51,582 bases of DNA, taken from the NCBI GenBank assembly GCA_020847095.1, contig JADLCR010000033.1:1-51582 (forward strand). Direction: 5' to 3'. Within the stretch, counting starts at the first letter, position 1. Each line of letters begins with the position of its first letter. Positions 7,613-28,375 of this stretch are shown one piece after another. The notes below the pieces were generated by a model, which had not been told where the DNA came from, made no database searches, and worked only from the letters and a program-made list of their open reading frames with translations. The translations under genes were made by a program, and so were the position numbers. Source of the DNA: Oligoflexia bacterium (lineage in GTDB: Bacteria > Bdellovibrionota > Bdellovibrionia > JABDDW01).

Positions 7613-8569
7613 ATGAAAAAGACCAGGCGAGCGCTGTATACGGGCCCACAAGATGCCTTGGCATTGATCCAACGGATCCTTACTCCGCACTTCGAAGTTG
7701 TGTGGGTAGAACCTAACGCAGAAAAGCTCTACAGTGAATTGGTGCGCTGCGACGTGTTTATTGACGCCTCGATGAAGGTTCCAGTTTCGCTCAACGCCAT
7801 CTCTAAAGCCGAGCGACTGGCTTTGGTGGTCACGGCAACCACCGGGGCCGATCATATAGATCATCAGGCGCTTGAATTACGACGAATTCCTCTTCTCACT
7901 CTCAAGGGACAAACTGAGATCCTCAGCAAACTCACTGCTGCCGCCGAACTGTCCTGGGCTTTACTAATGAATTGTTCTCGAAAGCTAAAGAGCGCATTTA
8001 GTCATGTAGAAAAAGGTGGCTGGGAGCGAACTGAGTTTCCGGGAGTCATGCTTCGTGGGAAGACACTAGGTCTTATCGGATTGGGAAGAATCGGGAGCTG
8101 CATGGCGCGCTATGCGCGAGCTTTCGAAATGAACGTTAAAGTATATGATCCCTTTATCACTGATGCCGGTGAATTGGAAATGCTCCCATTGGATGAGTTG
8201 CTAAATCAGGCGGACGTCTTGTCTATTCACGTTCCTCTGAATGAATCCACTAAGGGACTTCTTAACCGCGATCGAATCGAACGACTTAAAAGAGGTGCGA
8301 TAGTGGTCAATACGTCACGTGGAGCGATTATTGATGAAATGGCGATGGTTGAGGCTTTAAGGTCAGGCCAAGTCTCTGCCATAGGAGTTGACGTGCTTGA
8401 GGGGGAGCCTGAGATTCTAAAGAGCCCTCTTTGGCAAGAGAGCTTGAGAAATCCAAATATAACAATCACTCCGCATATTGGAGGATTTGCTCCTGAAGCA
8501 GTTCATCTCGCATTAAAATTTACGTGTGATCGAGTGCTCAAATTTTTCGATTTAGAAGGAAAATCATGA
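7613..8569 (+). CDS. D-isomer-specific 2-hydroxyacid dehydrogenase
   Basis: A 318-aa NAD-dependent dehydrogenase of the SerA/formate-dehydrogenase-like family, interconverting a D-2-hydroxyacid and a 2-oxoacid. The Rossmann motif GLGRIG is at residues 156-161. The catalytic triad is Arg236 (NTSRGAIID), Glu265 (in EGEPE) and His288 (TPHIGG). The ATG at 7613 is preferred over the in-frame TTG at 7568, because homologous proteins begin close to the first beta strand. There is no ACT or other regulatory domain, so it is unlikely to be the housekeeping SerA. The stop overlaps the next start (ATGA), so it is translationally coupled to the ThDP enzyme that may use its 2-oxoacid product. Confidence 0.85.
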   Translation: MKKTRRALYTGPQDALALIQRILTPHFEVVWVEPNAEKLYSELVRCDVFIDASMKVPVSLNAISKAERLALVVTATTGADHIDHQALELRRIPLLTLKGQTEILSKLTAAAELSWALLMNCSRKLKSAFSHVEKGGWERTEFPGVMLRGKTLGLIGLGRIGSCMARYARAFEMNVKVYDPFITDAGELEMLPLDELLNQADVLSIHVPLNESTKGLLNRDRIERLKRGAIVVNTSRGAIIDEMAMVEALRSGQVSAIGVDVLEGEPEILKSPLWQESLRNPNITITPHIGGFAPEAVHLALKFTCDRVLKFFDLEGKS

Positions 8570-10149
8570 CGTCAATTACCAGCTTATTGGCGAACGGATT
8601 GAAGTCCCATGGCATTACGCTCGCCGCCGGGGTGGTGGGTGGAGGAGCAAGTTTAGACTTGGTACGGGCGATGAACGATCTGGGAATAGCATATTTACCC
8701 GTCCATCATGAGGCTTCCGCAGCGATTATTGCAGGTGCTCTGGGAAGAGAGGGGAAGTGCAGGGGAGCCGCCATAAGTATTAAAGGCCCTGGATTTGCCA
8801 ATCTCTTGCCGGGCATTCTCTCTAATTATTTTGAAGGTCGACCATCTGTAACAATTAGCGAGAGTTATTTGCCGGATGCTCCGCCCTCTGTCAGACACAA
8901 AAGAATGGATCAGTTTCACTCTACTGAGCAATTAGTTAAAGGGTATTGGGCGGCAAACGAAAATCGCGACGGATTGTCCCGTTTGTTACAAATTTCTGAG
9001 AAAGAAGCGCCGGGGCCAATTCACATAGACTTAAACCTGCAAAATCGGAAGAACTCAGACCCAAAAATTTCCAACCAAGCGTGTTATCAATTAAACGCAA
9101 GCCTAGATGATTTAAAAGAAACCCTCATAGCAATCGAAAATTCGCGATGTCCTGTTGTAGTGATGGGATCGTACGTGAATAGATCTCGTTTCAAAATGGA
9201 TTGGTCGAAACTAACAATTCCTGTTGTTACGACGGCTTCAGCTAAGGGTATATTCGACGAGTATTCTCCGTTCGCAGCTGGGATTATCACTGGCGAAATT
9301 GGAGATCTGTCTCCAGAAAAAAATATTTTAAGTAAAGCGGACCTTATTGTGGCTATTGGTCTTCGAACTGTGGAGATGGTCAAGGTTCAAAAATTTGATG
9401 TACCCTCTATATTCATTGATGAATGTGACCCAATGCTCATTTCTGGATACCAACCTCAGGTGACATTTTTGTCATCAAACTTGGAAGAAGCTATGCATAG
9501 GGTTTTTGAAGTACTATCCAAGAAGTCGTGGGGTAGAGAACTAGTAAGCGGTTACCGTGCTCGCCTCGAATCTCACTTTTTGGGCTTTGGATGGAATCCG
9601 GCAAACGCTTTTTCGGAGCTCCATTCTGCGCTCTCGGGCGACTGCATTGTTGTTTTGGACACAGGTCTGTTTTGCACTATCGGAGAGACCGTCTGGCGCT
9701 CCAGAAATGCCGAAGACTTTTGCGGTAGCTCTTGCGGACGGTTTATGGGATTGGCAATACCAACGGCCGTCGGTGTGTCAGTGTCATCGCGTCAACGTAC
9801 AGTTTTGGCGGTACTGGGAGATGGTGGTATTGGGCCATATTTTGCCGAAATTCAAACCGCGATTGATCATAAGTTACCCATTATCTTTGCACTTATGTCT
9901 GACGGTCGGTATGGGAGCATCGCTTTGGCATCTGTCGGAAAAACTCAGAGCTCTCAAGCCTATGAATTTAAGAACCGGCGGTGGCACGAGCTAGCCGCCG
10001 TGCTTGGTTGTCAAACTGAGGTTGTCACCGCCCCGGGATTGCTTCAACGGGCGATTAGCAATTGGGACCGTTCTCAAGGACCTCTATTCTTGGAATTGCC
10101 CTTTGAGCCAAATAGTTATTTAGAAGCAGCTAGACCATTGAGATATTGA
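8566..10149 (+). CDS. Thiamine-diphosphate-dependent enzyme, acetolactate-synthase-like
   Basis: A 527-aa protein with the three-domain ThDP architecture: PYR domain (about 1-165) with the cofactor-activating Glu49 in HHEASA, a central domain (about 185-320), and a PP domain (about 345-520). The PP motif starts with GDGG near residue 420 and should end in Asn-Asn about 27 residues later. Here that position reads SDGRYG, a substitution worth noting. The family decarboxylates 2-oxoacids and transfers the resulting acyl anion. The partner here could be a sugar, aldehyde or second oxoacid. AAGGA precedes the start. The upstream hydroxyacid dehydrogenase overlaps by 4 bp, suggesting the pair handles one 2-oxoacid. 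It is not the biosynthetic IlvB: there is no IlvN gene and identity looks low. Confidence 0.85.
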   Translation: MTSITSLLANGLKSHGITLAAGVVGGGASLDLVRAMNDLGIAYLPVHHEASAAIIAGALGREGKCRGAAISIKGPGFANLLPGILSNYFEGRPSVTISESYLPDAPPSVRHKRMDQFHSTEQLVKGYWAANENRDGLSRLLQISEKEAPGPIHIDLNLQNRKNSDPKISNQACYQLNASLDDLKETLIAIENSRCPVVVMGSYVNRSRFKMDWSKLTIPVVTTASAKGIFDEYSPFAAGIITGEIGDLSPEKNILSKADLIVAIGLRTVEMVKVQKFDVPSIFIDECDPMLISGYQPQVTFLSSNLEEAMHRVFEVLSKKSWGRELVSGYRARLESHFLGFGWNPANAFSELHSALSGDCIVVLDTGLFCTIGETVWRSRNAEDFCGSSCGRFMGLAIPTAVGVSVSSRQRTVLAVLGDGGIGPYFAEIQTAIDHKLPIIFALMSDGRYGSIALASVGKTQSSQAYEFKNRRWHELAAVLGCQTEVVTAPGLLQRAISNWDRSQGPLFLELPFEPNSYLEAARPLRY

Positions 10150-10164
10150 AGATTGGGGGCTGAC

Positions 10165-11187
10165 GTGAGTTCTGCAAAAAAGCATATTTTGGTGATTGGG
10201 GCTGGTTCGGTTGGAAAACGCCATTGCAGCAATTTGGCTCTTTTGGGGTGCGATCTATCGGCCGTAGATCCGCGTCGTGATCGAATTGAAGAAACCCATG
10301 AAAAGACCCCTCTTATAGGAAAATTTCTTAGGATTGAGGATGCATTGAGATTGGTAAACTCGTTTCATGGTGTAGTCGTGTCCTCGCCACCGAAGTTTCA
10401 CTTAGAGCAGACCGCCCCTTTTGTAAAGGCTCGCATACCTGTTTTGTTAGAAAAGCCACTTGCCATGAATATTGATTCAATAAATGCCTTTTTGAAAGTC
10501 GTGGGTTCAATTAATGAGGTCTCTAAGTATATTCTTTTGGGCTATTCTTATCGATGGTGGCCGCCGTTGATTTCTCTGCGGAAGCGAATTCAATCTGGCG
10601 AAATTGGTAAGCCATTGCATGCACGCTTTACAATGAGCGCGCACTTGGCCGACTGGCATCCTTGGGAGCCTTATCAAGAGTTTTTCATGGCGAGTAGCGA
10701 TCTCGGTGGGGGGGCTCTACTAGATGAGAGTCACTTCATTGATCTTATGCTTTGGATTTTCGGTAAGCCAAAGCATATCACCGCCTCAATCGATAAGATT
10801 AGCAATTTGGAGATTGCGACCGATGATTGCGTTGATTTACTAGCCCAATATAACGATGGATTTAGGGCAACAATTCATCTCGATTTATTTGGGAGACCGC
10901 ATGAGAAATCAATTACGGTGACCGGCGAGCATGGCACCCTAGCATGGAGTTTCGAGCCCAACGCTATTAAGCAAGCTTCCACTTCGGAGTCAACCTGGGA
11001 AGTTAACAGTTTCGTTGGAGCGCGCAATGATATGTTTCTGGAAACAGCCCGTGAGTTTTTGAGCAAAATAGATGGCAATCTAAGTGAGAATCCTACCTGC
11101 TCATTTGAGGATGGAGTGGAAGTTCTGAGGGTGATTGAAGCATGCAGAAAGAGCTCTTCGCAGGGCAAGACGATAAGTTTGGGCTAA
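10165..11187 (+). CDS. Gfo/Idh/MocA family NAD(P)-dependent oxidoreductase
   Basis: About 340 residues. The N-terminal Rossmann domain has VIGAGSVGKRH near the start, followed by the conserved EKPLAMN motif near residue 100 (the EKP lysine) and the C-terminal alpha/beta sheet domain with GGALLDESHFIDLMLW, whose His is typical of the substrate site. The family oxidises or reduces sugars, inositols and related polyols at a ring carbon. I prefer the GTG at 10165, preceded by a GGGGG-containing site, over the TTG at 10153. The gene follows the ThDP gene within 20 bp and lies in the same operon. Confidence 0.85.
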   Translation: MSSAKKHILVIGAGSVGKRHCSNLALLGCDLSAVDPRRDRIEETHEKTPLIGKFLRIEDALRLVNSFHGVVVSSPPKFHLEQTAPFVKARIPVLLEKPLAMNIDSINAFLKVVGSINEVSKYILLGYSYRWWPPLISLRKRIQSGEIGKPLHARFTMSAHLADWHPWEPYQEFFMASSDLGGGALLDESHFIDLMLWIFGKPKHITASIDKISNLEIATDDCVDLLAQYNDGFRATIHLDLFGRPHEKSITVTGEHGTLAWSFEPNAIKQASTSESTWEVNSFVGARNDMFLETAREFLSKIDGNLSENPTCSFEDGVEVLRVIEACRKSSSQGKTISLG

Positions 11188-11211
11188 AATGAATCAATGT
11201 AGAAAAGAATT

Positions 11212-11922
11212 ATGAATATTGCTGTTTTGAGTGACATACATGGCAACTTTTCCGCGTTAAAGGCAGTTTTAGATGACCCAGATTTTCAAAGTTGCCAGCG
11301 AGTCATTTTTTGCGGAGACGCCGTCGGGTACTATTTCGAATCAGAGTTAGTTCTCGATTTTTTGATACAGGCCAATGCTGTTGGTGTTTTGGGGAATCAT
11401 GACCGCGAACTTTTGAATTGTATTACGGGTGGAGGAACTGTAACCCAAGAATATTCCTTAAAGTATGGGTCAGGGCTACAGACCTCAATAGCACGGCTGG
11501 GTGATAGACATATCAAGTGGCTAAGCACTCTGCCAGAAAGTCGAATTGAAAACGTTGAAGACTTACGAATTTTGATTAGCCATGGGTCTCCAATTATAAA
11601 AGATGGATATTTATATCCAGATTGCTCGGAAGCTCAAAAAAGTGAGATTTTTGATCTTGGTTTTGACTTGGTTATGATGGGACATAGTCATCATCAATTT
11701 CTATTTGAAAAATTGGGGCAAAAGATACTTAACCCCGGCTCTGTTGGACAGTCGCGATCGAAAGGTGGAGTGGCCCACTGGGCGGTCATTAAAATTGAAA
11801 ATTTCGGTATAGGTGCCTTTTTGAAAGAGTCCGCTTACGACAGTTCGCCGCTTATTAATGAGCTCCAGAATCATTTGGATTTACCGAAGTTTCTTACTGA
11901 AGTTTTGAGGAGAATAAGGTGA
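11212..11922 (+). CDS. Calcineurin-like metallophosphoesterase (YfcE/MJ0936-like)
   Basis: A 236-aa cytoplasmic phosphoesterase with the complete dimetal motif set: Asp8-x-His10 (SDIHGN), Asp36 (CGDAVGY), Asn62-His63-Asp64 (GNHDREL), His124 (SHGSP), and His158/His160 (GHSHHQF), followed by NPGSVGQSR. Such enzymes hydrolyse phosphomonoesters or phosphodiesters. Inside this operon it may remove a phosphate from a pathway intermediate. It starts 24 bp after the previous gene and its stop overlaps the GTG of the ATP-grasp gene. Confidence 0.85.
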   Translation: MNIAVLSDIHGNFSALKAVLDDPDFQSCQRVIFCGDAVGYYFESELVLDFLIQANAVGVLGNHDRELLNCITGGGTVTQEYSLKYGSGLQTSIARLGDRHIKWLSTLPESRIENVEDLRILISHGSPIIKDGYLYPDCSEAQKSEIFDLGFDLVMMGHSHHQFLFEKLGQKILNPGSVGQSRSKGGVAHWAVIKIENFGIGAFLKESAYDSSPLINELQNHLDLPKFLTEVLRRIR

Positions 11923-12854
11923 AAGTTCTCCTGACGGCGATTGGAGGTGACATTTCACAATCTATTGCTAAAATTTTGAAGAGTTGGGACAGGTCTTTAG
12001 AAATCATTGGTACCGATATGACTGCCATAGGTGCGGGTCGGCATTTCTGTGACCGATTTGTCGAAGTTCCTCCCGCGACTTCTCCAGATTTTAGTTCTCA
12101 CTTGAATCTTATTATTAAAGGCGCATCTATTGACCTATTAATTCCAGTCAATGAATCAGAAATTCAAGTGATTGCAGGTTCCGAGGCACAATTGCAAAAT
12201 AACTGCAAAGTGGTACGTGCCCGATCTCCGAGGATTTCGGATTGTTTCGATAAACTAAAGACAAATCAGCTGCTAACTGGTTTCGGACTTAAGGTGCCTT
12301 GGACTCGTGAAACCAATGCTGCACCAAAAGAGTTTCCATGTGTTTTCAAGAATAGAATTGGTTCAGGATCTAAAGGGTTGAACATTTTGAATTCAGAAGA
12401 AGAATTTTTATTTTTTAGTAAAAGGTACAGACATTTTATTTCACAAGAGTTGCTGATGCCGCAAGAACAAGAGCTGACCTGTGGCGTTTATCGTGATCGA
12501 AAGGGTAATACCGATGTTGTGATCCTTCGGCGTAGACTTGCTGGAGGGTTAACTAAATTTGCTGAAGTCATTGAAGACAAAGAGGTTCGGAAGTATTGCG
12601 AGGCAGCGGCCAATGCAATGGATTTGTGGGGATCCATAAACATACAATTAATCAACACCAGTGAAGGTCCCAAGGCCTTTGAAATTAATCCCCGATTTTC
12701 GAGCACCTCTATATTTCGACACCAAGTCGGCTTTCAGGACGTCATATGGAGCATTGAAGAGCTCTTAGAGAAACCCCGATCCGATTTGTTCGTCCCTGAA
12801 CGTGCATTAGGAAAACGCTTTTATAGAGTATTTAGTGAAATTTTCGAAGACTGA
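11919..12854 (+). CDS. ATP-grasp ligase (carbamoyl-phosphate-synthase/PylC-like)
   Basis: A 311-aa ATP-grasp enzyme. The N-terminal pre-ATP-grasp domain (about 1-105) begins with VLLTAIGGDISQSI. The ATP-grasp domain has FPCVFKNRIGSGSKG (lysine and glycine loop, about 140-155), the EQELTCGVYRDR strand, and FEINPRFSSTS near residue 250 with the Mg-binding Glu and Asn. Such ligases join a carboxylate to an amine, thiol or sugar through an acylphosphate. GTG start with AGGAG seven bases upstream; it overlaps the phosphoesterase stop by 4 bp. In context it probably condenses an acid made by the upstream enzymes, which is inference. Confidence 0.85.
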   Translation: MKVLLTAIGGDISQSIAKILKSWDRSLEIIGTDMTAIGAGRHFCDRFVEVPPATSPDFSSHLNLIIKGASIDLLIPVNESEIQVIAGSEAQLQNNCKVVRARSPRISDCFDKLKTNQLLTGFGLKVPWTRETNAAPKEFPCVFKNRIGSGSKGLNILNSEEEFLFFSKRYRHFISQELLMPQEQELTCGVYRDRKGNTDVVILRRRLAGGLTKFAEVIEDKEVRKYCEAAANAMDLWGSINIQLINTSEGPKAFEINPRFSSTSIFRHQVGFQDVIWSIEELLEKPRSDLFVPERALGKRFYRVFSEIFED

Positions 12855-12882
12855 TAATTGGATCGCTGTGGAGGAGTTCGCT

Positions 12883-13740
12883 ATGAGCGTGCGAGAAAAT
12901 GAACTTGGATTCTTTGAGATCTGGCCGAAGCCAAGCGAAGAAGATCTCGAGAAGTATTATAATGACAAATATTTCGCAGCTAACAAGGGGCAATATAGCG
13001 CATCTTACTCTACAGAAGAGATAAGGCAAAAATATGTAGAGTGTGAAGAGACTTTTCAGATTGTGGCCAAGAACCATGGAAGTTTGCTTGATATCGGATG
13101 TGGAGAAGGGTTTTTCTTGGATTGGTTTAAGAAAAAAGGGTGGAATGTGGTCGGTGCCGATTTTACCTCTGATGGGATTCGGCACTTTTTTCCGTCGCTA
13201 GAAGCTCACGTCAAATTGGGAAGTGTTTTTCAAACTATAGAAGACGAAGTTAACTCAGGTCGCAGATACGACTTGGTGTGTTGTAATAATATTTTGGAGC
13301 ATGTGCTGAATCCTTTAGATCTCCTGGAGGGAATTAAAAAGCTCATGGCACCGGGCGGAATTTGTAGAATTGTTGTGCCCAATGACTACTCCTATTTGCA
13401 AAGGGAGTTGGTTGCACGCGGTTTAACTAAAAATGAGTTTTGGATATTCAATCCTGACCATCAAAACTATTTTAATGCGGACAGTCTTCCGATTGTCTTA
13501 GAGAAATCGGGCCTCCGGGTTAAGAGGCTATTGTCTGACTTTCCAATCGACATGTTCTTGTTTAATCCGGATAGTAATTATGTTCAGGATCCTCAAAAAG
13601 GCAAGAACTGCCATAAAGCGCGAGTTATGATCGAAACAATGATGGCCTCTCAGGGAATTGAAAAGTTGGTGTCATTTCGAGAAGGTTGTGCGAAGTCTGG
13701 AGTGGGGCGATCGCTCATTGCTTATTGTGCTTTAGAATAA
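12883..13740 (+). CDS. Class I SAM-dependent methyltransferase
   Basis: About 285 residues. The start at 12883 is chosen because a GGAGGAG ribosome site lies six bases upstream; the longer frame from GTG 12835 would place this site inside the gene. SAM motif I is LLDIGCGEGFF (from about residue 67), followed by VVGAD (motif II acidic residue). The post-I segment YDLVCCNNILEHVLNP matches ubiquinone-type and sugar O/C/N-methyltransferases. It is the last gene of the plus-strand operon, 28 bp after the ATP-grasp gene. It ends four bases from the end of the convergent epimerase. The target is unknown. Confidence 0.85.
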   Translation: MSVRENELGFFEIWPKPSEEDLEKYYNDKYFAANKGQYSASYSTEEIRQKYVECEETFQIVAKNHGSLLDIGCGEGFFLDWFKKKGWNVVGADFTSDGIRHFFPSLEAHVKLGSVFQTIEDEVNSGRRYDLVCCNNILEHVLNPLDLLEGIKKLMAPGGICRIVVPNDYSYLQRELVARGLTKNEFWIFNPDHQNYFNADSLPIVLEKSGLRVKRLLSDFPIDMFLFNPDSNYVQDPQKGKNCHKARVMIETMMASQGIEKLVSFREGCAKSGVGRSLIAYCALE

Positions 13741-13744
13741 GGGT

Positions 13745-14611
13745 TTACAGGTGGGCTAGTTGCTTAACCAAACCAGGTAGCCAATGGGATATAGGTGACG
13801 CTAAAAATCCAATTTCTGTGAGTTTTGTTGTGTCCATATGCCAATCGTCCGCCATTGAAAATGGGGATCGGTTAGTCTCTCCTGAAGAAGCCAAAACAAC
13901 CTTTTTGCCTAAAATTTGCTCAATCAGTCTCACTAGTTCTTCAAGACTAATGGGATCATTGGAACAGCAGTTTATTGGACCATTCACATTGTGATCCACG
14001 AGATAACTTAGAAACTCGGCCGCGTCTTCAGCATGAATAAACGAAAGTTTGGATCTGAGATTCTGAAAATAGATTGGCTCACCTTTATTAATGCGGTCGA
14101 TATGAAATTTTAGTCGCTGCGTATAGTCGTCGATTCCGAGCACAATAGGAAATCTGACAGAGGTCACTGATTCAAACGAGCTTTTCGAAAAAATAGCCTC
14201 AGCCTGCCGTTTTGATTTTCCATAGTCGTGCCCCCGCTTAATGATCGGGTCCAAGGGTTCGGTCTTGGGATCAAATGAGCTTTCCGGAATATTCTGTCCG
14301 AGGCCATAAACCGATTGAGTCGAAATAAACACGTACTTCTTTGTTTTTGATTCGAAACATCGACATGCGCTCATGGCCTCAAAAGCGTCATAACAAACTT
14401 GATCGAAGATTATATCCCAATGTCTGTTTTGGATCAGAGAATGATTGGAGTGAAGCTCATTTCGATCAATTTGAATTCTATCTACTTTTGAACCAAAACC
14501 ATCCGGGATTTGGCCACGATTGAGCAGCGTGACCTCAAAATTTCTGCCGATCAAATTTGCTGCAAGTCTTTTGCCAAAAAACCTATTTCCGCCTATGATC
14601 AACACCTTCAC
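13745..14611 (-). CDS. NAD-dependent epimerase/dehydratase (extended SDR)
   Basis: About 288 residues. The GTG at 14611 gives the usual N-terminus directly before VLIIGGNRFFG (NAD-binding loop). A TTG at 14623 touches the GGAGG ribosome site and is a poor start. The catalytic Tyr130-x3-Lys134 pair (YGKSK) and the preceding STQSVYG segment are intact. The sequence is closest in style to the plastid-type mRNA-binding/isoflavone-reductase-like epimerase branch. It probably acts on a nucleotide sugar. Although on the opposite strand, it is packed against the methyltransferase, so it may belong to the same pathway. Confidence 0.8.
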   Translation of the reverse strand: MKVLIIGGNRFFGKRLAANLIGRNFEVTLLNRGQIPDGFGSKVDRIQIDRNELHSNHSLIQNRHWDIIFDQVCYDAFEAMSACRCFESKTKKYVFISTQSVYGLGQNIPESSFDPKTEPLDPIIKRGHDYGKSKRQAEAIFSKSSFESVTSVRFPIVLGIDDYTQRLKFHIDRINKGEPIYFQNLRSKLSFIHAEDAAEFLSYLVDHNVNGPINCCSNDPISLEELVRLIEQILGKKVVLASSGETNRSPFSMADDWHMDTTKLTEIGFLASPISHWLPGLVKQLAHL

Positions 14612-14741
14612 AGAATCGCTCAACCTCCAGCTCGGAAGCTAAATTGGCAAGATTTTAAAATCAATTGAAATATCAAAAGACAATGTCCTAATGTAACTGG
14701 CAGTTGCCTTTAGAACCGGCCCTTATTAAACTATTATTGCC

Positions 14742-15602
14742 ATGACAAGTCTCAATCAACTCAATGTTGTGATTACGGGAGCGGCCTCAGGAATCGGAAA
14801 AGAGCTCGCTCGTGAACTTTTTGTTAAAGAGGGTTGTCATCTTACTCTCATTGATATCGATGAACGAGGCCTAGAAGCCCTAAAAAACGAACTTAAACCC
14901 GACGATGACGCAAGTCCGGCACTGGGCATTGGTCTGATCACATGCGTGCCCACGGATTTGGGTCAAACACAATCTGTAGAAAATTCGATCGAGAAAATTA
15001 AAGGCCAGAAAGTTGATTTACTGATTCATTGTGCAGGCCTAACTTATGCGGGTCTTTTTAAAAATATGCGTTTTTCTGATTTTCAGCACATTCTAAATGT
15101 CAACTTCATGGGACTTGTGCAACTTACTTTGGGGCTTCTAACTGCTCTTGAGAAAAGTCAGGCACCCGCCATCATTAATATGTCGTCCCTTGCCGGAATA
15201 GTGGGCGCGCCCGGTATGGCAGCATACTCAGCGTCTAAATTTGCGGTCGTGGGATTTTCTGAAGCCCTGAGAGGCGAGGTTGGAGATCGAATTCATGTCT
15301 GCACGGTCTGTCCCAGTTTGGTTAAAACCGGAATTGCCAAAAATTCATTGGGACCAATGGTAAACGATAAAGATGTCGAGCGTGTGGCAGAGATGGAAAG
15401 ATACATGCGTTTCGGTACAAGTCCTAAACGAGTGGCGCGCATTATTATTTCTCAGGGCATCAAAAAACGTAAGGCGAAGCTGGTTATAAATCCAGATGCC
15501 AAGGCTCTGTATATACTTAAAAGGCTCTTTCCTAAAACCTCAGAGAGAGTTGCGTATTTGTTATTTAAGCATTTCCGCAAATCTGGAGTTTTAGGCTTAT
15601 GA
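14742..15602 (+). CDS. Short-chain dehydrogenase/reductase
   Basis: A 286-aa classical SDR: cofactor motif TGAASGIG (residues 12-19), NAG-like segment HCAG, catalytic Ser148, Tyr162 and Lys166 (YSASK). The C-terminal extension (KAKLVINPDAKALYILKRLFP) is typical of lipid- or steroid-acting SDRs that sit near the membrane. It is the first gene of a three-gene plus-strand operon. Its stop overlaps the next start by 4 bp. No clear ribosome site precedes the ATG. The substrate is unknown; a lipid or ketone is inferred from its partners. Confidence 0.85.
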   Translation: MTSLNQLNVVITGAASGIGKELARELFVKEGCHLTLIDIDERGLEALKNELKPDDDASPALGIGLITCVPTDLGQTQSVENSIEKIKGQKVDLLIHCAGLTYAGLFKNMRFSDFQHILNVNFMGLVQLTLGLLTALEKSQAPAIINMSSLAGIVGAPGMAAYSASKFAVVGFSEALRGEVGDRIHVCTVCPSLVKTGIAKNSLGPMVNDKDVERVAEMERYMRFGTSPKRVARIIISQGIKKRKAKLVINPDAKALYILKRLFPKTSERVAYLLFKHFRKSGVLGL

Positions 15603-16324
15603 AGGAAGTTGATTTTTTTTCTAGATACAAACAAGAAGACATTTCGATTAGGCAGTACTCTGGTAAGTCACCTATGTTTTTTAGAGACATATTTTCTTTT
15701 GGTGCGTTATTCGCATTACCAATTACGGTGGCCGAAGAGTTAACAAGAGAAGTTGGTTTGAAGCCATTAAGACTTCCTTCTGGTGACGGGATAATTGGAC
15801 TTTGGTGTTTTGAGTACAAAGACTCCGACATTGGACCTTACAATGAATCAGCTATGTCAGTGCTGGTTCAAGGGCCTTCGTTAACGTCACTTGTAAGAGA
15901 GTCTCATATTCATATTTTAAAACTCCCAGTAACTACTGAAGTGGCCTTATTTGGGGGCATTGATTATTTGGGTTACCCTAAAGTAATGGCTGACGTACGG
16001 TTTACAAAAACGCAAACTCATCACATTTGTGAGGTTAATGATCTTTGGAGGTTACAGGTAAAACTCTGTCACTTGTGGAGATTACCAATAGAGAGGCGTG
16101 TTGTGACTTACCCGACTCTGAATGGAGTTGCGATGACTGCCGAATTGGAATTTAATATTTTGCGTATGGGAATGAGTTTGAAACACTCAGCAGCACAATT
16201 GAATATTTTAGATAAGACTTTAGCTAAAATGCTGGGCGGTAAGGCCCAGATTAGTTCGTATGGAGCCATCGTCATTGATAAAGCTCAGGCTATCTTAAAG
16301 AGGCCACAAGTGAGAGTGTTATGA
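15599..16324 (+). CDS. Acetoacetate decarboxylase (ADC) family protein
   Basis: A 241-aa ADC-fold protein. The region GPYNESAM (about 80-87) and the DYLGYPKVMADV segment with Lys128 match the lining and the Schiff-base lysine of acetoacetate decarboxylases. Family members decarboxylate beta-keto acids or act as aldolase/dehydratases on related substrates, so Lys128 suggests imine chemistry. ATGA overlaps join it to the SDR upstream and to the FAD enzyme downstream, so the three proteins are made together and probably process the same carbonyl compound. Confidence 0.8.
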   Translation: MKEVDFFSRYKQEDISIRQYSGKSPMFFRDIFSFGALFALPITVAEELTREVGLKPLRLPSGDGIIGLWCFEYKDSDIGPYNESAMSVLVQGPSLTSLVRESHIHILKLPVTTEVALFGGIDYLGYPKVMADVRFTKTQTHHICEVNDLWRLQVKLCHLWRLPIERRVVTYPTLNGVAMTAELEFNILRMGMSLKHSAAQLNILDKTLAKMLGGKAQISSYGAIVIDKAQAILKRPQVRVL

Positions 16325-17622
16325 AAGTGGCTGTCATTGGAGCCGGAATGGCAGGACTGACGGCCGCCCATTATCTAAGCCGCAAGCACGACGTAACAGT
16401 CTTTGAAAGGCAAAATCGAATCGGGGGTAATGCCTACACTCTAAAAACTCGAGACGGTCAATTTTTGGATATTGCGGTGGCCGCCTTCGGCCAAGCTGGC
16501 TACACCAATTTTTATAAATTGCTTGATGAGCTTGGCGTCGAGACAGATTTTTGCGCTAATTCATATATGAGTTTTCATGATCTAGATAACGGGAAGGGGA
16601 TTTATATTCCGGGCGCTCTGAAGGGGTTGCTCGCTCAAAGACTTGATATTCTGAGGCCGAAAAGACTTCTAAGTTTTGTGAATATGTTTCGGGGTTTAAA
16701 TCAATGGCAGAAAATGTACGATCAAGGTAAAACAAAGGGCCTTACATTATATCAGGCATTTGAAGCCAACGCCTGTTTTGATCAAGACAGCCGGCTTTTT
16801 ATGATTTGCACTTTTTGTCTTCTGTCGTCCATGTCAGCGTCTGAGGTGTTGTCGACACCGGTTGAATTTTTCATTGAAAAACTTCGGATTCACCATGATG
16901 TCGTTTCGCCCAAAGCAGTTTATTCAGTTCGGTGCATTAAACTGGGCACCAAGGCCTATATCAATGCTCTTGCCGCTCCGATCAGAGACAAAATCAAGTT
17001 AGAATCAAAACTTACGATGGTCAAGAGACATGACAAAGGTGTTGATATTGGTGTTGCTGGAAAAGACCTTGAGCGCTTTGATTCCGTGGTGTTTGCTTGT
17101 CCTCCCGATCAGATACTCGAAATTTTTAGAAATCCCATTCAATCAGAGGAAGAGTTTTTGAAAAAGTGGCGCTTCAAGAATGGTCGGGTGGTGGTTCATC
17201 GTGATCATAAGCATTTTCCGCGGCGGGACTTGATTCAGGCCTATACATTTTTATACCGACGGAATTCAAAACATTCTCCAATCGAGGCTTTCGTCTCAGA
17301 TGTCGAAACCTCCGTCAACGGAGCACTTTGGCATGAGCCACAAGCGCCTAAAGATTCTGACTTTATAAGTACTCAACATCCTAATTTTGAAATTGATCCT
17401 CAATTAATCGAATTTGAAACTATTTTAAGTACACCCATATACGATTTTAATTCGTTTTCGGCACTCAAAAGCTATAAGGCGATGCTCAGCCAACCTGATG
17501 TACATTTTTGTGGTAGCTATCTCGGATATGGTCTTCATGAAGATGCCGTGCGTACCGCACTAGATGTGGCCGAACAACTTGGCTGTGCGCCTTCTTGGTT
17601 TGAACCTCGAGATCTGTTTTAA
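16321..17622 (+). CDS. FAD-dependent amine-oxidase-like oxidoreductase
   Basis: A 433-aa flavoprotein. The FAD-binding dinucleotide fold opens with VIGAGMAGLTAAHYL (Gly7-x-Gly9-x2-Gly12), followed by the VFERQNRIGGNAYT segment, as in the protoporphyrinogen oxidase/phytoene-desaturase/amine-oxidase group. The C-terminal FAD contact is CGSYLGYGLHEDAVRTAL. This NAD(P)/FAD type also sits beside fatty-acid cyclopropanation genes in other bacteria, but none is present here. The stop overlap with the ADC-like gene makes it the third gene of the operon. It ends 21 bp before a convergent small ORF. Confidence 0.8.
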   Translation: MKVAVIGAGMAGLTAAHYLSRKHDVTVFERQNRIGGNAYTLKTRDGQFLDIAVAAFGQAGYTNFYKLLDELGVETDFCANSYMSFHDLDNGKGIYIPGALKGLLAQRLDILRPKRLLSFVNMFRGLNQWQKMYDQGKTKGLTLYQAFEANACFDQDSRLFMICTFCLLSSMSASEVLSTPVEFFIEKLRIHHDVVSPKAVYSVRCIKLGTKAYINALAAPIRDKIKLESKLTMVKRHDKGVDIGVAGKDLERFDSVVFACPPDQILEIFRNPIQSEEEFLKKWRFKNGRVVVHRDHKHFPRRDLIQAYTFLYRRNSKHSPIEAFVSDVETSVNGALWHEPQAPKDSDFISTQHPNFEIDPQLIEFETILSTPIYDFNSFSALKSYKAMLSQPDVHFCGSYLGYGLHEDAVRTALDVAEQLGCAPSWFEPRDLF

Positions 17623-24310: not shown

Positions 24311-26089
24311 TCACAAGACATCGATCCATGGCGGGCTTATGGCAAATGCCGCATTGATTTGCCCAACGTGCGAATAGGCCTGAGGAAAGTTCCCCAACTG
24401 TTGGCGATCAGATGGCATAAAATGCTCTGAATAAAGACCAAGATGATTCGCCGTTTGCATAGCTCTTGTCATTATTGATTTCGCTTCATTGTTTTTTCCG
24501 ATTCGCGCTAAAGCCTGGGCTATCCAAAATGAGCAAACGACAAAGGCCGCTTGAGGCGTTCCAAAATCGTCTTTTCTTGTATAGCGGTAAAACAAACTCC
24601 CCTCGGAGCCTTCCACGGCTAAAACTTTGCCAATTTGTTCCAAAGTCGCTCTTGTGACAGCTTCATTCGGGTATCTGAGAACAGAAAACAACGAGAGAGC
24701 GGCATCAAAACTTTCATCTTGGGGCCCATTTCTGACGGATCCATCACGAATGGCTTTTTCGATGGTGTGTTCAGCTCGCGATTTTTCAACTTCAATATCA
24801 ATTGATAACCCCTTGAGGTATCCCTGTTTTTGAATACGCTGTAATCTTTCAAGCCCTGCCCAAGACATTAAATTTGTGAAGGTGTGTTCTTGCCAGCCAT
24901 TGCGGATTTCCCAAAGGCCCGCATCGGGTTGCCCAATTGTTTTTACGGCCAACTTTGCCAAATGCTCCAAAAGCTCCTCGTGCTCTTTAGTGCGTAAGTG
25001 GACAAAGCGATGATCAAAAAATATTGGCGCCAAGGTCAAGATCATCTCACCATAGACATCATTTTGGACATGTTCAGCCGCTTGGTTGTTGCTACGTATT
25101 GGGGCATGGTTTTTATACCCAGTCCAATTTGAGTGAATGGTCTCAGGAAGTGGAAGCTCTCTGCTTAACGTGTAGACAGGCGCTAAACGCTCCTTTGAGG
25201 TTTCGTTATGGTGGGCGATATCAAGGAGAAATTTAAGAAAGCCCTCCATCTCTTCAAAGTGCCCAAGATTGTGGAAGGCCGACAATACAAAATAGGCATC
25301 TCTGAGCCAGCAGTAGCGATAGTCCCAATTACGCCCACCTCCAGGTTCTTCGGGAAGACTCGTCGTCAATGCCGCAAGAATCGCTCCAGTGTCTTCGAAA
25401 CAGTGAAGCTTGAGCGTAAGGGCTGAGCGAATTGTTTCTTGCTGAAAAAGGCTTGGTATAGAGCAGTGCTTGACCCAGGTCTTCCAATAGTGCTCGGTTT
25501 GAGAAAGAAATCTCTCACAGAGTTGAGCCAGATCTTCTTCAACCGCAGAATTCCAGCTCAGGCAAAAGTAGAGCTTGTCTTTGAGCAAGAATGGAGTCTG
25601 GTCCGTCAAGTACGTCAGAGGCATATTAGTGGTGAGACGTAAGGACTCATTTCTGATTTCAAAACTCACATGGCTATTGCCTTTTGATGGCTTAACAACT
25701 TGTTTGTTCCAACCATTAATTGGTTCGCATACAACCTTTATGGAAGGGCTACCCGAGACCGGTTCGATAATCCGAACTAAGCTCAATGGTCTGAACATCC
25801 GGCCATGTTGTTCAAAGCGTGGGCAAAAATCGATAATTTGAAAGGCATTGCCGTTTTTGTCCTCAAGCTGGGTACAAAGAATATTCGTATTCTCCAGATA
25901 GCTTTGACGCCATTGACCATGCGCATCATCGGCATGTTGGATGGAAAATTCCCCGCCATTTTGGTCAAGTATCTTCCCAAAAACAGGCTCACTGTCAGGA
26001 CGCGGAAGGCAGAGCCAATCAAGGGATCCGCGCTCACTGATCAACGCCGAAATGTTGCAGTTTCCAATCAACCCGTGGTTGTACATCAT
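24311..26089 (-). CDS. Glycoside hydrolase family 15 protein (glucoamylase/trehalase-like)
   Basis: A 592-aa cytoplasmic GH15 enzyme: N-terminal beta-sandwich (about 1-210) starting HGLIGNCNISALIS, and a C-terminal (alpha/alpha)6 barrel. Visible landmarks are NWDYRYCWLRDA near residue 258, the general-acid segment GLWEIRNG near 391, and the late DDFGTPQAAFVVCSFW segment. No signal peptide. GH15 enzymes release glucose from alpha-glucosides; several bacterial members are trehalases. Its position divergent from otsA-otsB, with about 40 bp between starts, supports a role in trehalose turnover. Maltooligosaccharide hydrolysis is the main alternative. Confidence 0.85.
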   Translation of the reverse strand: MMYNHGLIGNCNISALISERGSLDWLCLPRPDSEPVFGKILDQNGGEFSIQHADDAHGQWRQSYLENTNILCTQLEDKNGNAFQIIDFCPRFEQHGRMFRPLSLVRIIEPVSGSPSIKVVCEPINGWNKQVVKPSKGNSHVSFEIRNESLRLTTNMPLTYLTDQTPFLLKDKLYFCLSWNSAVEEDLAQLCERFLSQTEHYWKTWVKHCSIPSLFQQETIRSALTLKLHCFEDTGAILAALTTSLPEEPGGGRNWDYRYCWLRDAYFVLSAFHNLGHFEEMEGFLKFLLDIAHHNETSKERLAPVYTLSRELPLPETIHSNWTGYKNHAPIRSNNQAAEHVQNDVYGEMILTLAPIFFDHRFVHLRTKEHEELLEHLAKLAVKTIGQPDAGLWEIRNGWQEHTFTNLMSWAGLERLQRIQKQGYLKGLSIDIEVEKSRAEHTIEKAIRDGSVRNGPQDESFDAALSLFSVLRYPNEAVTRATLEQIGKVLAVEGSEGSLFYRYTRKDDFGTPQAAFVVCSFWIAQALARIGKNNEAKSIMTRAMQTANHLGLYSEHFMPSDRQQLGNFPQAYSHVGQINAAFAISPPWIDVL

Positions 26090-26131
26090 TTTAAAGTTTA
26101 TTTTAGTTTTATATCAAAGTAAAATGTGTTC

Positions 26132-28375
26132 ATGCGATTATCACTGAAGTTCATACTTCCGCTGGTCCTAGTGCTGGCGCTGATCACTTATGCGCTCATG
26201 CCCCTCGTGGACCAGCTCACCTTGAAATGGTTTGTGCGCGACCTGGATATACGCTCAAAACTCATCACCGATACCATGCAGCTTCCACTCGCCGAGTTGA
26301 TTCAGTCAGACTCGCGGGCCAAGGTCTCAAATTTCTTCAATCGCGTGATCCGCGACGAACGACTTTATGCGCTTGGTTTCTGTGTTCAGGCTAATGAGCT
26401 GAAATTTAAAACCCAAACCTTTCCCATAGATTTCAATTGTACCTCGGAGGTCAAGGGAGAAAATCAGAGTGTCGTTATCAAATTGTCCAAGGGTTCCCTT
26501 CACTTTGCCAAACATGCCATAGATTCCGAAGGCAAGGTCATCGGGCAATTGATCCTTGTTCATGACATGAGTTTCATCGAAAGACGCAGTTCTGATACCA
26601 AGAAATATATTTTCTATCTGTTTATCGGACTGGGCATTGTCATCTCCTTGATGACAGTGGTTATCGCCCAATTGAGCTGGCGCGGTTGGGTAGCGGGCAT
26701 GAGGGCCCTTCTAAAAGGTGAAGGTTTGGTTAAACCCCTTTCTCAGATGAATCGCCCAGAGCTATTGCCCTTGGCGAAAGATTTGCGAGCCTTAGTGAGG
26801 GATCTTGAATCTGATCGCCGAGCGAAGGATGAGAGCCCAATCTCCTGGACGCCTAAAACCTTAAAAGCAGTATTGCATGATGAGTTGGCTGGCGATGAGA
26901 TCCTCATCGTTTCAAATCGTGAGCCTTACATTCATAATTGGAAGGGCGAAAAAATCGAGGTGCAGGTTCCCGCAAGCGGACTCGTGACAGCTTTGGAACC
27001 GATCATGAGAGCCTGTTCAGGAACATGGATTGCTCACGGGAGTGGGTCCGCTGATCGGGATGTCGTCGATAAACAAGACCATGTTCGAGTTCCACTTGAG
27101 CACCCTTCTTACCAGATCCGTCGGGTTTGGCTTACTAAAGAAGAAGAGAATGGATACTACTATGGATTTGCCAATGAAGGAATTTGGCCTCTTTGCCATA
27201 TAGCACATACAAGACCAACGTTTCGTACTCAAGATTGGAAGCACTATTCAGAAGTAAATAAAAAATTCGCTAAAGTCGTCGTTGAAGAGGCAAAAACAGA
27301 AGACCCAGTCATCCTCCTTCAAGACTACCATTTCGCCCTTTTGCCAAAACTTATCCGTGAAGAGTTACCCCACGCGACGATCATCACATTTTGGCACATA
27401 CCATGGCCCAATCCAGAAGCTTTCGGGATTTGTCCATGGAGGGAAGAGATTCTGGCGGGATTATTGGGTAGTAGCGTTGTCGGGTTTCACACGCGATTTC
27501 ATTGCAACAACTTCATCGATACCGTTGATCGCTTTTTAGAGGCACGGATAGACAAGGAAACCTCGACTATTTCCTATGGTGGTAAACTCACATCCGTCAA
27601 AAACTATCCGATTTCTATTGAATGGCCATCTCGATGGCTCAAAAAACAGAAACCTGTCAACGAATGCCGTGCCGAAATAAGAACAATCAATAACATGCCC
27701 AAAGACATTTTACTTGGGATCGGCGTTGATCGGCTTGATTACACTAAAGGAATTTTAGAAAGATTCATGGCTGTGGAGCGACTGCTTGAGTTATACCCAG
27801 AATGGATCGGCAAATTTACTTTTGTACAAATCGCTGCTCCCACGCGAACCAGCATTGATCAATATCAAAATTTTGAATCTCAAGTACGTGCCATGGCGAG
27901 AAAGATCAATGACCGATTTGGCAGGCCTGGGTATGAGCCCATTTGCCTTAAAGTTGAACACCATGAACCTGACATGATTTACGAATACTACCGGGGTGCA
28001 GACGCTTGCATGGTGACAAGTCTTCATGACGGAATGAATCTGGTGGCAAAAGAGTTTGTCGCTGCCCGCGAAGACAATCAAGGCGTGCTCATTTTAAGTC
28101 AATTTACTGGAGCCGCTCGTGAACTTCCTGAAGCTCTTGTCATCAACCCTTATAATATCGACCAATGTGCCAATGCTTTGAATATTGCGTTGACGATGCC
28201 TATGACTGAGCAGCGCGACAGGATGCGAAGCATGCGGGGTCTTATACAAGAGTTTAACGTCTATCGCTGGGCGGGAAGGATGTTGATGGATGCCTCCAGA
28301 ATCAGGCAGCGCCGTAGGCTCATGGGACGCATTCAAGAAACGGAAAACTCATTGCAAGAGGGGCCGTCGTTATGA
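26132..28375 (+). CDS. otsA: Membrane-anchored HAMP-domain trehalose-6-phosphate synthase
   Basis: About 747 residues joining a sensor-like membrane module to a GT20 enzyme that makes trehalose-6-phosphate from UDP-glucose (or another NDP-glucose) and glucose-6-phosphate. TM1 lies at about 5-25, a periplasmic domain of about 130 residues follows, then TM2 (about 159-181) and a HAMP-like linker (to about 235). The GT20 domain starts at SNREPYIHNW (about 260) and has TFWHIPWPNP, GVDRLDYTKG (about 531) and SLHDGMNLVAKEF (about 629). Plain OtsA is about 470 aa and soluble. The fused form is known in proteobacteria, from memory. ATG 26132 is preferred to GTG 26126. It overlaps otsB by 4 bp. Confidence 0.9.
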   Translation: MRLSLKFILPLVLVLALITYALMPLVDQLTLKWFVRDLDIRSKLITDTMQLPLAELIQSDSRAKVSNFFNRVIRDERLYALGFCVQANELKFKTQTFPIDFNCTSEVKGENQSVVIKLSKGSLHFAKHAIDSEGKVIGQLILVHDMSFIERRSSDTKKYIFYLFIGLGIVISLMTVVIAQLSWRGWVAGMRALLKGEGLVKPLSQMNRPELLPLAKDLRALVRDLESDRRAKDESPISWTPKTLKAVLHDELAGDEILIVSNREPYIHNWKGEKIEVQVPASGLVTALEPIMRACSGTWIAHGSGSADRDVVDKQDHVRVPLEHPSYQIRRVWLTKEEENGYYYGFANEGIWPLCHIAHTRPTFRTQDWKHYSEVNKKFAKVVVEEAKTEDPVILLQDYHFALLPKLIREELPHATIITFWHIPWPNPEAFGICPWREEILAGLLGSSVVGFHTRFHCNNFIDTVDRFLEARIDKETSTISYGGKLTSVKNYPISIEWPSRWLKKQKPVNECRAEIRTINNMPKDILLGIGVDRLDYTKGILERFMAVERLLELYPEWIGKFTFVQIAAPTRTSIDQYQNFESQVRAMARKINDRFGRPGYEPICLKVEHHEPDMIYEYYRGADACMVTSLHDGMNLVAKEFVAAREDNQGVLILSQFTGAARELPEALVINPYNIDQCANALNIALTMPMTEQRDRMRSMRGLIQEFNVYRWAGRMLMDASRIRQRRRLMGRIQETENSLQEGPSL

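Follow-up and report, generated by a model that had tools for sequence, protein, structure and literature searches.

A candidate pseudaminic acid decoration operon in an Oligoflexia bacterium

The stretch of DNA analyzed here, hereafter the window, comprises the 51,582 nucleotides of contig JADLCR010000033.1 (C33) from an Oligoflexia bacterium of the phylum Bdellovibrionota (assembly GCA_020847095.1). It holds a run of six genes (7613-13740) coding for a D-2-hydroxyacid dehydrogenase (HADH), a thiamine diphosphate (ThDP)-dependent enzyme, a Gfo/Idh/MocA oxidoreductase (Gfo/Idh), a metallophosphoesterase (MPE), an ATP-grasp ligase, and an S-adenosylmethionine (SAM)-dependent methyltransferase (MT), which is met by a convergent epimerase gene. 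The reading we favor, with slightly better than even confidence, is that the run is an operon for decorating pseudaminic acid (Pse), a sugar of nine carbons found on bacterial surfaces. Flagella and capsules are decorated with Pse and related sugars, whose substituents differ greatly from strain to strain.

Under this reading, the ATP-grasp ligase would attach a small hydroxy acid, probably phosphorylated, to Pse or a Pse precursor at a free amino group, the MPE would take the phosphate off, and the MT would cap a hydroxyl or amino group. HADH, the ThDP enzyme, and Gfo/Idh may make the hydroxy acid, a step with less support than ligation and methylation: the ThDP enzyme could carboligate or decarboxylate a 2-oxo acid, HADH could interconvert the 2-oxo and D-2-hydroxy acids, and Gfo/Idh could provide a further redox step. 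We infer the ligase substrate, the order of the reactions, and the role of the first three genes, as well as, from the operon structure in one genome, what the acid is and that the two halves of the run belong together.

A gene module shared with pseudaminic acid loci

Scanning an alignment of four MT sequences against bacterial and archaeal species genomes yielded 80 loci; from their scores and coverage, 53 were classed as orthologous and 27 as weakly related. PseI is encoded within 10 kb in 37 of the 53 orthologous loci versus one of the 27 weakly related ones (Fisher test, 7e-9). The orthologous MTs, from many phyla, are 30-46% identical over their full length. MT, MPE, and ATP-grasp genes are found together in nine orthologous loci spanning Nitrospirota, Pseudomonadota, Thermodesulfobacteriota, and Bacteroidota; Pse genes accompany the trio in six of the nine, and in a seventh, L019, PseG sits at the edge of the contig. 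The typical order is PseG–MT–MPE–ATP-grasp–PseI, most clearly in Nitrospira (L018), where PseB, PseC, a NeuA-like protein, PseG, MT, MPE, ATP-grasp, and PseI are encoded in one run. As in the window, the three genes are consecutive in the module loci, for example L018 and the alphaproteobacterial L036 and L051, with MPE ~29-37%, ATP-grasp ~29-40%, and MT ~30-41% identical to the window proteins. The order there is MT-MPE-ATP-grasp, whereas here it is MPE-ATP-grasp-MT. Also, the module in those loci lies between PseG and PseI, while that of the window is preceded by HADH-ThDP-Gfo on a contig lacking Pse genes. Taken together, gene neighborhoods support the view that MPE, ATP-grasp, and MT constitute a recurring mobile module that normally resides inside Pse biosynthesis loci. 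We found no description of the MT-MPE-ATP-grasp set in Pse loci in the open-access literature, where the pairing of pseudaminic acid with ATP-grasp was likewise not described and pseudaminic acid with metallophosphoesterase returned nothing.

In the phylum of the window the MT is rare, present in two of 290 other genomes sampled (45% and 53% identity). In a member of the same family (G002), the MT homologue adjoins PseB. That homologue (L011:11723-12570) is interrupted by an in-frame stop and may be a pseudogene. Elsewhere in the phylum, the MT gene of G148 adjoins a cytidylyltransferase gene with a PseI-like gene 5 kb off, and G140 encodes SDR-MPE-ATP-grasp-PseI in a row (37% and 40% identity).

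Within the same genome as the window, matches to the NeuB family are on two other contigs, C97 and C88. The first encodes PseB, PseC, a class III aminotransferase, PseG, and PseI; its PseG and PseI genes are adjacent, and it is exactly between those two genes that L018, L036, and L051 hold the module. On the other, which carries NeuB/NeuC/NeuA genes, a further NeuB-like gene of this genome precedes one for a cytidylyltransferase-like protein (L016:14277-16018), and the best matches of this pair are in module loci L036, L048, and L051 (NeuB only in L051, at a contig end). A complete pathway to cytidine monophosphate-activated Pse (the Pse pathway is outlined in PMC5109656) is likely encoded in this genome, with neither PseF nor PseH assigned with confidence in the stretches of it that were read. 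The genome has seven flagellin matches and no match to MptE-like/Maf proteins; the final acceptor of the sugar may be flagellin, capsule, or lipopolysaccharide. As the initial annotation pointed out, none of the seven genes codes for a glycosyltransferase, a transporter, or a nucleoside diphosphate (NDP)-sugar synthase; the missing glycosyltransferase and NDP-sugar synthase are no puzzle, as the Pse sugar genes sit on another contig.

Class III (glutamate-1-semialdehyde-like) aminotransferases are encoded in the Pse loci of the family of the window (L011:6292-8328, L015:9938-11272), with the one in G002 fused to a cytidylyltransferase. Beyond the Pse genes of C97 (L015:13570-19959) are genes for MT, aminoglycoside-3-acetyltransferase-like, glyoxalase-like, AMP-binding, thioesterase-like, and DUF2172/DUF4910 proteins, a region reminiscent of the Campylobacter Cj1295 region. 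The DUF2172/DUF4910 protein has a weak M28-peptidase match and is presumably of the Cj1295 kind.

The ligase and its phosphatase partners

The neighborhoods of 43 genes of this PRK12767-like ATP-grasp family, from surface-glycan loci, were surveyed (in L017-L069, L005, L006, L108-L113, and the window), a non-random set, as most were picked via the MT and the rest via the ATP-grasp itself. A phosphatase is encoded within 2.5 kb of 42 of the 43 genes. The partner is of the HAD kind in 25, MPE in 13 (including the window), and PHP in four, and never of two kinds at once; HAD and MPE are found together in none of the 53 orthologous MT loci (Fisher test, 0.0026). A tree of the ATP-grasps (31 rows) splits by phosphatase partner: a branch sets the HAD-linked rows apart, and the window protein belongs to the MPE-linked clade (support 100/99). 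The metal-ligand residues of the MPE are invariant or nearly so among ten aligned homologues. The near-constant presence of a phosphatase suggests a phosphorylated acyl intermediate is likely. To our knowledge the textbook Pse pathway needs no phosphatase, and so the phosphate would belong to the substituent or its donor.

An epimerase/SDR gene or fused domain accompanies 25 of the 43 ATP-grasp genes, the window included, and the HAD-linked ATP-grasps often carry a fused epimerase domain. For that reason we kept the convergent epimerase of the window as a candidate that may belong to the cluster. It is not orthologous to the ATP-grasp-linked epimerases, with ~20-24% identity over long matches.

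It is possible, though short of probable, that the ATP-grasp and phosphatase represent a general and undescribed route for nonulosonic acid (NulO) acylation. In this route, a phosphorylated hydroxy acid would be ligated to the amine of a sugar, one of three mutually unrelated phosphatases would remove the phosphate, and methylation would follow; the window variant would build a new acid de novo via a ThDP-dehydrogenase-Gfo branch. If true, that branch would introduce a novel type of side group. That this ATP-grasp family goes so strictly with a single kind of phosphatase, and is tied to Pse loci, provides a concrete and testable enzyme set and predicts a phosphorylated acid as the donor.

The first half of the run and the competing explanations

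All seven genes named in the initial annotation are uninterrupted open reading frames with Pfam matches that agree with the families proposed (Table 1). They are arranged as it described, six in one direction with overlaps or gaps of at most 28 bp, and the epimerase on the opposite strand.

Table 1. Genes of the run and the convergent neighbor.
Product	Coordinates	Strand	Family evidence
D-2-hydroxyacid dehydrogenase (HADH), phosphoglycerate-dehydrogenase-like, 318 aa	7613..8569	+	Pfam 2-Hacid_dh_C 7e-53
ThDP-dependent enzyme, acetolactate-synthase/decarboxylase superfamily, lone branch, 527 aa	8566..10149	+	Pfam TPP_enzyme N/M/C
Gfo/Idh/MocA oxidoreductase	10165..11187	+	Pfam GFO_IDH_MocA_C3 6e-20
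Calcineurin-like metallophosphoesterase (MPE), ATP-grasp partner	11212..11922	+	Pfam Metallophos_2
ATP-grasp carboxylate-amine ligase, PRK12767-like	11919..12854	+	Pfam ATP-grasp_3/PylC-like_N; NCBIfam NF009402 1e-51, under cut-off
Class I SAM methyltransferase (MT)	12883..13740	+	Pfam Methyltransf_23
NAD-dependent epimerase/dehydratase, convergent, possible member only	13745..14623	-	Pfam Epimerase 1e-15

The HADH and ThDP genes overlap by 4 bp, as do the MPE and ATP-grasp genes, and 24 bp separate Gfo/Idh from MPE. Gfo/Idh likelier starts at GTG 10165 (GGGGG upstream), 15 bp past the ThDP gene, than at TTG 10153. Similarly, ATG 12883, behind GGAGGAG and 28 bp past the ATP-grasp stop, is a more likely MT start than GTG 12835; purine-rich ribosome-binding sequences precede both preferred starts. 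The stop codons of the MT and epimerase genes are 4 bp apart. As promoter-like and terminator-like matches in the run were not above those in shuffled sequence, no internal break was marked.

Catalytic motifs are intact in HADH (the R/E/H motifs NTSRG, DVLEGEP, and PHIGG), Gfo/Idh (EKPLA), MPE (SDIHGN/GDAVGYY/GNHD/SHG/GHSH), ATP-grasp (EINPRFSS), and MT (DIGCGEG). The ThDP enzyme has the catalytic Glu in HHEAS and a GDGG...MSDGRYG motif, with Asp where the second Asn metal ligand usually stands. HADH matches both 2-Hacid_dh and 2-Hacid_dh_C, and its nearest Protein Data Bank chain is the phosphoglycerate dehydrogenase (PGDH) 1wwk (2e-45); its best NCBIfam model, PGDH, scores 206 bits, well under the curated cut-off of 454. 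Likewise, the best NCBIfam score of the ThDP enzyme is 148 bits against a cut-off of 509, and the curated acetolactate synthase score is not reached.

Several observations weigh against a role of the whole run in Pse decoration. No Pse genes were seen on C33 by NeuB family search, open reading frames, or families, and 16 of the 53 orthologous MT loci have no PseI in the stretch examined, some of these 20 kb long. The six-gene run was found in one genome only, that of the window, and the genes flanking it are absent from two family relatives. Counterparts of HADH, the ThDP enzyme, and Gfo/Idh are absent from the 53 MT loci, except for one distant ThDP enzyme in L068.

Across 369 genomes of the phylum, nothing apart from its own genome matches the ThDP enzyme below 1e-26, and no close relatives were found in plasmids (best identity ~24-25%), phages, viral contigs, or genome contigs. 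Phage matches for the ThDP enzyme and HADH, low in identity and drawn largely from phage-isolate contigs without annotation or from records that look bacterial, were set aside. A structure prediction for the ThDP enzyme was discarded given its predicted local distance difference test (pLDDT) score of 34. Gfo/Idh has no match at 1e-25 among 98 relatives. Within the NeuB/NeuC/NeuA stretch of contig C88, a fumarylacetoacetate-hydrolase-like gene adjoins one for another D-2-hydroxyacid dehydrogenase (L016:9876-11689), which shares 35% identity with the window HADH over 172 aa.

One rival explanation is that only MPE, ATP-grasp, and MT decorate Pse. HADH, the ThDP enzyme, and Gfo/Idh would then form a separate run, catabolic or biosynthetic, that came to lie next to them by chance. 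The dearth of counterparts for the first three genes in the MT loci favors this explanation, and the GC contents of 45.8-47.8% for the first three genes and 41.4-42.1% for the last three fit different origins. However, the two halves share a strand and are 24 bp apart, and terminator-like matches do not exceed chance. In addition, ThDP enzymes are known in such loci, as with sfmB of Shewanella and in Geobacteraceae L068, where ThDP-SDR-ATP-grasp lies within a Pse/Maf locus that also has an MT homologue. Gfo/Idh is also encoded beside ATP-grasp in NulO locus L112. We regard a chance juxtaposition as unlikely.

Another surface amino sugar could instead be the target, be it in an O-antigen or a capsule, or a different nonulosonic acid, for instance the one of C88 with its NeuB/NeuC/NeuA genes. 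Three of the loci with MT, MPE, and ATP-grasp (L019, L032, L046) have no PseI in the stretch examined, although L019 has its edge PseG, and related ATP-grasp genes are also in NeuB/NeuC loci (L111-L113) and beside sulfate-activation genes in Sinorhizobium. As the closest members of the ATP-grasp clade with enough flank are mostly beside PseI, PseG, or PseC and the MT has a strong association with Pse loci, we consider a target other than Pse rather improbable. A free-standing small-molecule pathway unrelated to glycans (e.g. peptide-like or siderophore-like) is very improbable: ATP-grasp and MT enzymes do occur in small-molecule clusters and the seven genes include no glycosyltransferase or transporter, but the run also lacks a regulator or resistance gene, and the synteny of MT, MPE, and ATP-grasp is with Pse loci.

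The initial proposal, in which these genes could make an unusual acid-derived unit, ligate it, and methylate it, is thus partly supported: synteny supports the ligation and methylation half well, with Pse as the likely target, whereas the building genes lack a syntenic explanation. The refuting case named with that proposal, a syntenic surface-glycan cluster accounting for all seven genes, applies halfway: MPE, ATP-grasp, and MT are explained, HADH, the ThDP enzyme, and Gfo/Idh are not, and the epimerase is plausible at the family level.

Beyond the epimerase, the window codes for a coupled SDR reductase, acetoacetate-decarboxylase-like protein, and FAD oxidoreductase (14742-17622), the last unmatched at 1e-30 in both family relatives. 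Farther on (24311-28375), two divergent genes code for members of glycoside hydrolase family 15 and of glycosyltransferase family 20, the latter trehalose-phosphate-synthase-like.

Comparison with known systems

Among the closest described systems is sfmABCDE of Shewanella oneidensis, coding for a NeuB-like protein, ThDP enzyme, SDR, MT, and ATP-grasp; the operon, which includes sfmB for the ThDP enzyme, is needed for normal modification of flagellin, to which a NulO with a methylated substituent of 236-264 Da is attached (PMC3765264). For several known substituents, this one among them, the individual enzyme steps have not been worked out. Like sfmABCDE, the run in the window combines a ThDP enzyme, an NAD(P)-dependent reductase, a SAM methyltransferase, and an ATP-grasp ligase. 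Unlike sfmABCDE, its reductases are HADH and Gfo/Idh rather than an SDR, and it has an additional phosphoesterase. The ThDP enzyme of the sfm-like locus L068, compared in place of SfmB itself, is 21-24% identical to that of the window, no closer than ordinary acetolactate synthases, and the L068 ATP-grasp, in place of SfmE itself, is of the LAL_C2 type while that of the window is not. We class the cluster as one for nonulosonic acid decoration, and as neither an sfm operon, since the run has no NeuB-like gene, nor a plain Pse locus, since its contig is without Pse genes.

In Campylobacter jejuni, Pse carries di-O-methylglyceric acid and Cj1295 is for di-O-methylglyceryl-Pse (PMC3068675); orthologues of PtmH, a nonulosonic acid N-methyltransferase of C. 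coli and C. jejuni, have also been placed in Pse loci (PMC13317340). The Campylobacter genes for Pse and legionaminic acid substituents resemble our proposal in combining acyl substitution and methylation of a nonulosonic acid, although the run in the window has no Cj1295-like gene. Acinetobacter offers a precedent for Pse-modifying genes that lie well away from the Pse locus, as its epaAB act from a site ~1.4 Mb off the capsule locus (PMC12053666).

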